From contig DSBL01000146.1 in assembly GCA_011049455.1 (NCBI GenBank), positions 1 to 35,755 on the forward strand: DNA of 35,755 nucleotides, read 5' to 3'. Under the pieces are notes generated by a model, which was not told where the DNA came from, did not search any database, and worked only from the letters and a program-made list of their open reading frames with translations. Shown in pieces: positions 24,683 through 27,036 of the stretch (the first letter of the stretch is position 1; the number at the start of each line of letters is the position of its first letter). This DNA is from Desulfonatronum sp. (GTDB lineage: Bacteria; Desulfobacterota; Desulfovibrionia; Desulfovibrionales; Desulfonatronaceae). The translations under genes were made by a program, and so were the position numbers.

Positions 24683-25187
24683 ACCCCACCTCTCACCGCT
24701 GATGCACATGACAGCAAGATGAAGAATGTCGCATGACTTTGGCAACCATATCTCACGATTAAGATCAAGGTTGCCATGTCCTCATCTGTTGTATCGGCGC
24801 TTACCGAATTTTCTTTAGGGGGTGTTCGCACTCTTTTTTCAAAAATTTTTGGTTCGGACAATTCATGGGGTGCTCTGATCCAAGCCATGCAATTTTTTCA
24901 GCATGGTCCGTCATGGGCGTGACGTGAAGCATGTTTGCAAGATGAAGCGAGTGAACCGAAAAGAGAAAAAACAACATGCTTTAATCATTAACAAAAATAA
25001 GACGAACCAAGAACATTCTTTCCCTGCTCAAGGCATGAGGCCAGACCATCTTGAAATTCGGCCCACGCCCTTTGGACACTCCACAAAAAAACATAACTTA
25101 TTTATATTAATAGTTAAATTAGTTATGGCATTGTGCTTGCTTTGCATGAAACCAATACGAGTTCAACCCCTTTGAGGAGGTCTTCTT
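24683..25187. other. flaG-flagellin divergent intergenic region
   Basis: About 505 bases without a gene I trust. It is AT-rich from about 24960 to 25130 and holds the sigma-54 promoter of flagellin at its right end. No matching sigma-54 site was seen on the minus strand for flaG. Short open frames here have poor composition and no ribosome site and were not accepted. Confidence 0.6.
25126..25141 (+). promoter_or_regulatory. Sigma-54 promoter of flagellin
   Basis: TGGCAT-TGTGC-TTGCT matches the -24/-12 consensus TGGCAC-N5-TTGCW with one mismatch, and the GG and GC are 10 bases apart as required. It is 46 bases before the flagellin ATG. Transcription would therefore need RpoN and an activator, as usual for flagellin in many deltaproteobacteria. 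Confidence 0.85.
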
Positions 25188-26117
25188 ATGTCTCTGGCTA
25201 TTAATACCAATTTAATGGCTCTCAATGCCGCCAGAAATCTTTCGGCAAGTTATTCACGGCTTGGAACATCAACTCAACGCCTCTCCTCGGGCCTGCGCAT
25301 CAACAACGCCTCGGACGACGCCGCGGGTCTGGCCATCCGCGAACTGATGCGCGCGGAAATATCCTCCATGCGCCAAGGGATGCGCAACGCCAACGATGCC
25401 ATTTCCTTGATCCAGACCGCGGACGGCGCCCTGCAGGTCATTGATGAAAAACTGATCCGCATGAAGGAGCTGGCCACCCAGGCGGCCACCGGCACCTACA
25501 ATTCGGACCAGCGTCTGATCATTGATTCGGAATACCAGGCCATGGCCTCGGAAATCACCCGGATCGCCAACGCCACCAAATTCAACGGGGTCTACCTGCT
25601 CAACGGTAACCTTTCAGGCGGGAACAACCCGGCCAGCTGGGGTGTTACACACAATGGAGAAGGCCTGCAGTCCACCGGCCCCATGAAGATCCACTTCGGC
25701 ACGGGCAATGACAGTGCCGAGGATTACTACTACATCGCCATCGGCAACGCCACGGCCTCGGCCCTGGGAGTGGGGAACAATTCAGGCGCCGGACTTACAG
25801 GCGACTACGCCGGGAATTCCATCTCCACCCAGGCCGGCGCCCAGCGGGCACTGGACGCCTTGAACGCGGCCATCATCTCCAAGGACCTGATCCGCGCCAG
25901 CCTGGGTTCCTTGCAAAACCGACTGGCCAACACCGTGACCAACCTGTCCATTCAGGCAGAAAACCTGCAGGCAGCGGAATCGCGCATATCCGACGCGGAC
26001 GTGGCTCTGGAAATGACCGAATTCGTACGCAACCAAATCATCACCCAGGCGGCCGTGGCCATGCTGGCCCAGGCCAACTCCCTGCCCAGGATGGCCATGC
26101 AGTTGATCAGCGGCTGA
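25188..26117 (+). CDS. fliC: Flagellin
   Basis: 309 residues, the filament subunit. The conserved N-terminal D0/D1 (SLAINTNLMALNAARNL, TQRLSSGLRINNASDDAAGLAI, ALQVIDEKLIRMKELATQAA) and C-terminal D1/D0 (LASLGSLQNRL, SRISDADVALEMTEFVRNQI, VAMLAQANSLPRMAMQLI) are complete. The central domain is small (about residues 145-215). The ribosome site is GAGGAGG, ideally spaced. It is preceded by a sigma-54 promoter and is divergent from flaG. Flagellin is exported by the flagellar type III system, so no signal peptide is expected. Confidence 0.98.
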   Translation: MSLAINTNLMALNAARNLSASYSRLGTSTQRLSSGLRINNASDDAAGLAIRELMRAEISSMRQGMRNANDAISLIQTADGALQVIDEKLIRMKELATQAATGTYNSDQRLIIDSEYQAMASEITRIANATKFNGVYLLNGNLSGGNNPASWGVTHNGEGLQSTGPMKIHFGTGNDSAEDYYYIAIGNATASALGVGNNSGAGLTGDYAGNSISTQAGAQRALDALNAAIISKDLIRASLGSLQNRLANTVTNLSIQAENLQAAESRISDADVALEMTEFVRNQIITQAAVAMLAQANSLPRMAMQLISG

Positions 26118-26177
26118 TAAAACCGCAATCGTCCCTTGCCGCGGCTTCTTCCCGGGGCTAAACATCGGCAGACCTTC

Positions 26178-26227
26178 TCCATGACGACAAGGGCCTGAAG
26201 CATGCTTCAGGCCCTTGTCGTCATGGA
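26178..26227. terminator. 50-bp perfect palindrome between fliC and rnc
   Basis: A perfect 50-base inverted repeat with no spacer (25-base arms, centre GCATGC), for example GACGACAAGGGCCTGAAG answered by CTTCAGGCCCTTGTCGTC. It lies between the convergent fliC and rnc genes, 60 bases after fliC and 6 bases after the rnc stop. There is no long T-run on either side. It probably ends both transcripts as a bidirectional hairpin; other roles are discussed in the findings. Confidence 0.7.
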
Positions 26228-26233
26228 CGCAAG

Positions 26234-26959
26234 TCAGAGATTTGACTCCCGGCCAAAAAACTTCAAGGCGTTTTGGGCCGCCTGTTGCTCGGCCTTTTTC
26301 ACGCTGGTTCCGCGGCTTCGGAACTCCTCCCCCGTGGGCAGCCGCAACAAAACATGAAACATGCGTTCATGCTCCGGGCCGGAGGTTTCCTCGAGAACAT
26401 ACGTCGGCCTGTCCTTGAAAATCTGCTGCGTCATCTCTTGCAGTCTGGTCTTGTAGTCCTTTTCCGATTGCACCTCTTTGATCCCCGACCAGAGAGGTGC
26501 AAAACGATTTAGCACCCATTCCCGGGCCGCGTAGTACCCGCCATCCAGAAAGACGGCCCCCAGCAAGGCCTCGAAGGCATCGCTCAACAGGGCGGGACGC
26601 TGTCTTCCTCCCTGGCTTTCCTCACCACGCCCCAACATCAGCATCCGATCAAGCCCCAGATCAAGCGCCAGGCTCGCCAGGGCCCGTTCGTTGACCAGCA
26701 TGGCCCTGTACACGGTCAACCGCCCTTCATCAGCGTCCGGATAGCGCGAAAACAGCTCTTCGGTAATGCACAATTCCAGAACCGCGTCCCCCAAAAATTC
26801 CAGCCGCTCGTTGCTCTGGCCTCTTCCGGTGGACTCGTTGGCATGGGAACTATGCGTCAGCGCTTCATTGAGCAGATCGACCTTGGCAAAAACATACCCT
26901 ATTTTGTCCTGTCCCGTGTTCACATCGCGTTTCACCGTCTTCCAAACCTCCTGTTCCAT
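26234..26959 (-). CDS. rnc: Ribonuclease III
   Basis: 241 residues. The RNase III signature NERLEFLGDAVLEL (50-63) holds E54 and D58; D127 and E130 of SDAFEALLGAVFLDGG complete the metal site. A C-terminal double-stranded RNA binding domain follows (about 165-238, ending VKKAEQQAAQNALKFF). It processes rRNA precursors and structured mRNAs. ATG 26959 is preferred; a TTG 9 bases upstream is possible. It faces flagellin and is divergent from the phosphotransacetylase-like gene. A long perfect hairpin is located 6 bases past its stop. Confidence 0.97.
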   Translation of the reverse strand: MEQEVWKTVKRDVNTGQDKIGYVFAKVDLLNEALTHSSHANESTGRGQSNERLEFLGDAVLELCITEELFSRYPDADEGRLTVYRAMLVNERALASLALDLGLDRMLMLGRGEESQGGRQRPALLSDAFEALLGAVFLDGGYYAAREWVLNRFAPLWSGIKEVQSEKDYKTRLQEMTQQIFKDRPTYVLEETSGPEHERMFHVLLRLPTGEEFRSRGTSVKKAEQQAAQNALKFFGRESNL

Positions 26960-27036
26960 GGAAACCAATGATCCTCATGAAGACCAACCGCCTTTCGCCG
27001 AGGGGAATGCGCCTTTTATCCGGGAGAATCGAGACA

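Follow-up and report, generated by a model that had tools for sequence, protein, structure and literature searches.

To our knowledge, there are few worked examples of a bacterial mRNA whose 5′ and 3′ ends pair with each other and thereby regulate it. In Staphylococcus aureus, a motif in the icaR 3′ untranslated region (3′UTR) pairs with the Shine–Dalgarno (SD) region of the same mRNA, which interferes with translation initiation and makes a substrate for RNase III (PMC3868564). In Escherichia coli, FliX arises from the 3′ end of the flagellin gene fliC; its pairing site is within the fliC coding sequence, and overexpression of FliX lowers flagellin (PMC10578931). In Vibrio cholerae, the 3′UTR small RNAs OppZ and CarZ pair with their own transcripts and inhibit their translation, OppZ at the start of oppB (PMC7398697). 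These accounts follow the available portions of the cited texts; in the available portion of a review of 3′-end small RNAs, neither fliC nor any name in Desulfo- appears (PMC9438474). No report of an element of the kind described below was present among the matches listed in a search of open-licence full texts.

Here, we describe a flagellin locus of Desulfonatronum sp. (Desulfovibrionales; assembly GCA_011049455.1, contig DSBL01000146.1), contained in a stretch of 35,755 nucleotides that we call the window. The larger finding is a putative anti-start element, i.e., a conserved, covarying segment of the flagellin 3′UTR that lies 5′ of a hairpin and would pair with the start region of the same message. 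It resembles the icaR motif in facing its own SD region, yet concerns another gene in another phylum, mostly abuts the terminal hairpin, enters codons 2–5 in most genera sampled and carries compensating changes across an order. FliX differs in its target, which lies inside the fliC coding region and not at the start site; FliX was also reportedly found in Hfq RIL-seq data, while no Hfq gene was found here. Function has been shown for icaR, and RNase E processing, Hfq dependence of OppZ and a setting of operon genes are features of OppZ and CarZ (PMC7398697, available portion), whereas the present case is described from sequence. The locus also recalls an intrinsic bidirectional terminator in placing a GC-rich stem between convergent genes, but this stem is a perfect one of 25 bp with no T-run on either strand.

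Results

In the window, fliC (25188–26117, plus strand; 309 aa, Pfam Flagellin_N and Flagellin_C) converges on rnc, the gene for ribonuclease III (26234–26968, minus strand; up to 244 aa, Pfam Ribonuclease_3 and dsrm). Upstream of fliC, TGGCAT-N5-TTGC (25126–25141, plus strand) resembles what we take to be the sigma54 consensus and is called a sigma54-like promoter on that basis; a similar TTGGCAC-N5-TTGCT is present in several congeners. A small GACATC/GATGTC hairpin was also seen near the presumed 5′ end of several congener fliC leaders.

Between the two genes lies a palindrome of 50 bases (26178–26227), the proposed 3′-end hairpin of both the fliC (plus) and the rnc (minus) transcript. An inverted-repeat search returned arms of 25 nt each (26178–26202 and 26203–26227; TCCATGACGACAAGGGCCTGAAGCA/TGCTTCAGGCCCTTGTCGTCATGGA), 100% complementary and with 0 nt between them, beginning 60 bases after the fliC stop codon (26115–26117) and ending 6 bases from that of rnc (26234–26236, minus strand). 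The original prediction, made from the letters of the sequence, had described just such a mismatch-free palindrome 6 bases past rnc, lacking T-runs and able to form 22–24 bp of RNA duplex, and each of these points held. The predicted RNA fold has 23 bp in its stem and 4 nt in its loop, and the 161-nt region containing it reached −72.5 kcal/mol (z −6.4), a stability equaled by 0 of 200 shuffles. A G+C-rich stem right after a stop codon, as in intrinsic terminators, is thus present; the accompanying T-run is not, there being 1 T in the 8 bases past the stem on the fliC strand and 2 T on the rnc strand (the 2 A preceding the stem), and a terminator scan of the window listed no site at the palindrome. 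The further claim that the stem exceeds an ordinary terminator was likewise upheld: the stem is far stronger than usual. It follows closely on the stop codons of the two converging genes.

The palindrome is also rare. Assuming equal base use, its chance expectation is 4^-25 × 35,755 centers, or ~3e-11, and it was the longest perfect stem in 435,755 sampled bases (the window plus twenty 20-kb stretches of the same genome), the runners-up being one of 19 bp, which lies at the edge of a contig, and one of 17 bp; a chance origin was rejected on both counts. Intergenic stems of 12–17 bp are present elsewhere in this genome. A REP- or MITE-like repeat family was rejected as well, because the 28-base core occurs at a single place in the 2.87-Mb assembly (164 contigs, 95% complete), even when up to 3 mismatches are allowed. 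No Rfam family matched at the gathering score in the window or in the 8 loci tested. As a side observation, 4 of 24 perfect stems of at least 12 bp fell within ~130 bases of the 20 sampled contig starts (L112:28–77, L114:1–26, L115:98–123 and L120:94–123), where the assembly probably breaks at inverted repeats.

Among the relatives, fliC faces rnc in 7 of 8 loci of the genus, and a stem was present in all 7 of these, measuring 25, 17, 14, 17 (one mismatch), 17, 18 and 16 bp. These stems sit +6 to +57 from the rnc stop and fall into three unlike sequences; in one congener (G006), the same-place stem of 18 bp was among the three longest in 400 kb. Outside the genus, stems of 7–16 bp were found, mainly of 10–12 bp. 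The expectation that the stem would be conserved in relatives was therefore half borne out: within the genus, its position is kept while its sequence has changed, but the long stem is not kept. A stem retained while its letters and length change fits a 3′-end hairpin and argues against a length requirement imposed by RNase III. We conclude that the palindrome is probably an unusually perfect 3′-end hairpin, common to the fliC and rnc transcripts.

When the fliC 3′ ends of seven congeners were aligned, GACATCGGCTGACCTCCTG was found, with small changes, immediately 5′ of the stem, the window version being AACATCGGCAGACCTTCTC. This element is complementary to the fliC SD and start (CAGGAGGTCCAGCTATGTC in L005 and GAGGAGGTCTTCTTATGTC in the window). 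In the window it consists of AGACCTTCTC (26170–26179) and ACAT (26162–26165), together spanning 26162–26179 on the plus strand and overlapping the base of the palindrome by 2 nt. Its target in the fliC leader (25174–25191, plus strand) consists of GAGGAGGTCT (25174–25183), which holds the SD, and ATGT (25188–25191), which holds the start codon. With 10 pairs, including one wobble, plus 4, the window element is among the weaker ones. In other families of the order, the 3′UTR often complements the fliC start, mostly at AUG and codons 2–5, as in GTCTTTGGTC/GACCAAAGAC; further matching sets are GTCTCTGGTC/GATCAGAGAC, GTCTTTAGTC/GACTGAAGAC, GTCCTTAATC/GATTAAGGAC and GTCTCTCGTC/GACGAGAGGC.

To quantify this complementarity, we used 77 distinct flagellin loci of the order, of which 70, from 21 genera, lie beside a convergent rnc. 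Identical copies were merged, and 14 loci without a recognizable flagellin start or a complete flagellin were set aside (L003, L006, L012, L016, L017, L019, L021, L027, L029, L031 and L218–L221), L218–L221 being recovered for the complementarity test; in L006, the element is present but the contig ends within fliC, and this locus was therefore counted for the stem and kept outside the 70. From a further set of 80 loci, L032–L036 were examined: L032 repeats L005, L034 repeats L010, L033 and L035 contain no usable flagellin, and L036, whose start was not found, was left unscored. L246 and L175 are one gene scored in two groups.

Each start (−16 to +15) was compared with its 3′UTR against 400 dinucleotide shuffles. 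Complementarity reached p ≤ 0.05 in 49/70 rnc-adjacent flagellins and p ≤ 0.01 in 40/70, although the loci are related and the counts are therefore not independent. Conversely, only 2/31 paralogous flagellins reached p ≤ 0.05 (Fisher 1e-9). The −16 to +15 leader was chosen after seeing the noisy result of an earlier shuffle test, which used a longer leader and in which 22/70 reached p ≤ 0.01, 42/70 reached p ≤ 0.05 and 0/7 nonadjacent loci did so. All 6 genus loci tested, those with a complete fliC, gave p ≤ 0.01 (window, 0.010), so that a 3′UTR segment complementary to its own SD and start, as in icaR-type regulation, is found here. Among ordinary genes, fliC included and with gene starts that are rough calls, p ≤ 0.05 was seen in 13/220 in the window genome and 10/220 in G006; by score, fliC was tied second in the former and first in the latter, and with a wide element it ranked 10th of 381 starts and 1st of 343, respectively.

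We also scored each 3′UTR against all synonymous versions of codons 2–4 (usually 144). Over the 70 loci, the real codons had a median rank of 1 of 144 (fraction 0.0069) and fell within the best 5% in 52, L008, L010 and L209 doing so through pairing outside the aligned element. For the paralogs the figure was 1/22, with 0/5 in a further set of paralogs. In the genus of the window, 1/6 passed, by another site, and the window ranked 35 of 144, because the genus element faces the SD instead. Compensating changes are accordingly present across the order and only weakly so within this genus. When leaders were permuted among 20 genera, one locus each, the real sum was never reached (20 draws of 2000).

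The departures from Watson–Crick pairing are informative about the nature of the complementarity. In the 60/70 loci with at least 7/10 Watson–Crick pairs, 30 of 43 non-Watson–Crick positions were G–U, whereas sites taken as background gave 28% (25 distinct combinations, not fully independent; binomial p 1.7e-8), the element having been located by Watson–Crick pairs alone. A predominance of G–U wobbles is expected for RNA and not for DNA repeats, and thus points to RNA pairing. In cofolding, at least 8 intermolecular pairs formed with the own leader in 65/70 loci, compared with 69% of 350 leaders carrying other codons, and the median gain was −8.9 vs. −5.8 kcal/mol (Mann–Whitney 3e-7), a modest contrast. 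Overall, 61/70 loci passed either the complementarity or the codon test and 40/70 passed both; 9/70 passed neither (L015, L025, L169, L192, L196, L203, L210, L212 and L213), a few of these showing partial matches by eye.

A hairpin follows the element on its 3′ side in 48/57 loci, at a median of 3 nt, with 9 lacking one by the criterion used. In the cofolds of the 10 loci listed, the leader helix stood beside the hairpin in 8, with zero gap in the window. In L201, the element pairs into the terminator and not with the leader; in L197, it is positioned after a hairpin; and in L010, L011 and L200–L202, it also forms the 5′ half of the stem of the terminator. Part of the conservation could therefore be local. 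In these last five loci and in L036 (Solidesulfovibrio, with GGACCAGGGAGG within the terminator stem), the 3′ arm of the terminator was seen to resemble the fliC start, which suggests two competing structures. A separate observation concerns the fliC 3′UTR of L022 (G032), where a run of ~20 G lies beside the element at the place where sister species have a terminator stem. A conserved small protein read from an SD-ATG-like sequence on the rnc strand was considered and rejected, as the peptides are unlike across loci by eye.

With regard to taxonomic spread, eight flagellins from five genomes in which no fliC–rnc adjacency was seen were also inspected. The element was present in L243, L245 and L247 (the assembly of the last being too broken to exclude adjacency) and missing from five, some of which are paralogs; the element hence seems tied to fliC and not to rnc. 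In the paralogous flagellin L226 (G105), whose start is different (GTCGATGGTT), the 3′UTR contains a 10-nt segment, AACCATCGAC, that complements this start perfectly, likely an independent case. Outside the order, p ≤ 0.05 was reached in 2/14 flagellin loci of a phylum sample (L256 and L257; one start, L268, was misplaced), giving no clear support; two more were at 0.053 and 0.06, and none lies beside rnc.

In the window's own assembly (G000), a second flagellin (C37:16703–17656; L216), an 84% identical match, lacks the element, and fliW and csrA are adjacent (C2:28369–29006). A search for Hfq (PF17209) found no gene in this 95%-complete assembly and found one in 5/14 control genomes; the gene may have been missed, or another chaperone may serve.

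Discussion

The reading that we favor, at a probability of roughly two in three, is that flagellin translation is subject to feedback through 5′–3′ pairing and that the hairpin marks the 3′ terminus of the message. The hairpin at the palindrome would stop or protect the fliC 3′ end and, on the opposite strand, that of rnc, and the 3′UTR just 5′ of it would act as an antisense to the start codon and ribosome-binding site of fliC itself. This segment would pair with the leader in cis, from another copy of the message or via a released 3′ fragment, and would block ribosome entry, a negative feedback that limits flagellin synthesis. The duplex with the leader would then directly adjoin the hairpin, the combined duplex being a possible target of RNase III. 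We infer from the sequence that leader and 3′UTR come together in the cell, that less flagellin is translated as a consequence, that the 3′ end is fixed by the hairpin and that RNase III plays a role. The pairing may lower expression or may protect the message, and may act in cis or in trans. Since a ribosome reaches the leader long before the 3′UTR exists, repression in cis could act only late.

The alternative that survives best is that the fliC 3′UTR, element and hairpin together, is released as a trans-acting small RNA, like FliX, OppZ and CarZ, with fliC and perhaps other starts as targets. We regard it as possible, if short of an even chance, and it is compatible with the pairing feedback model. 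A seed followed by a hairpin is the layout of such an RNA, and E. coli FliX, which arises from the fliC 3′ end, lowers fliC mRNA when overexpressed (PMC10578931, available portion). The missing Hfq tells against it, as OppZ relies on this chaperone (PMC9438474, available portion). Moreover, paralog starts scored at most 21 against the 3′UTR of the rnc-adjacent copy, compared with mostly 22–25 for the parent starts.

It is unlikely that the palindrome does no more than terminate strongly in both directions, or block 3′ exonucleases, next to a complementarity of no regulatory role. Such a role would suit a stem kept at its spot between convergent genes while its sequence turns over, in a genome with other intergenic stems of 12–17 bp. 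Yet this leaves unexplained why the 3′UTR complementarity follows the choice of synonymous codons at a distance of ~900 nt and why paralogs almost lack it, and neither side of the stem has a T-run.

RNase III needs a stem of about 22 bp, and the length and perfection of the palindrome, together with rnc as its adjoining gene, had led the original prediction to propose an RNase III site controlling the 3′ ends of rnc and/or fliC. The 5′–3′UTR duplex of icaR is indeed an RNase III substrate (PMC3868564, available portion). However, among the 48 loci of the order with element and hairpin, the stem reaches at least 20 bp in just one, the window's own, with 14–18 bp in the congeners; the sole congener with rnc away from fliC (L003, the eighth genus locus) has a 12-bp stem; and L243, L245 and L247 show the element with no rnc seen next door. 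A conserved RNase III signal controlling rnc is thus unsupported, and we consider the stem improbable as an RNase III control site for either gene. Cleavage by RNase III of the long stem, or of a 5′–3′ duplex, could nevertheless occur here.

A DNA-level role, in which the start region and 3′UTR act as inverted repeats of ~10–17 bp around the coding sequence and permit inversion of the gene (phase variation), is very improbable given that the departures are mostly G–U and that one repeat overlaps the start codon.

For the pairing feedback model, a translation block together with an RNase III substrate, as in icaR, is the natural expectation. In Bacillus subtilis, the SD is where CsrA and FliW control the translation of flagellin, a site for which the element would then be a competitor. 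On a broader view, which we hold with the scales about level, the rnc-linked flagellin mRNA of the Desulfovibrionales would close on itself and lower its own translation without Hfq, beside CsrA–FliW; in this species, the 25-bp hairpin and the leader duplex would together form a single long RNase III target. Flagellin translation would then be turned down as the message accumulates, and the antisense would be kept by compensating changes against synonymous codons 2–4 or would face the SD.

The element would be a coevolving feature of a very costly protein, present in most genera sampled from one order, and a self-pairing flagellin mRNA would stand in a genome where Hfq was not found. The matched changes in codons and 3′UTR would offer natural variants for telling action in cis from action in trans.
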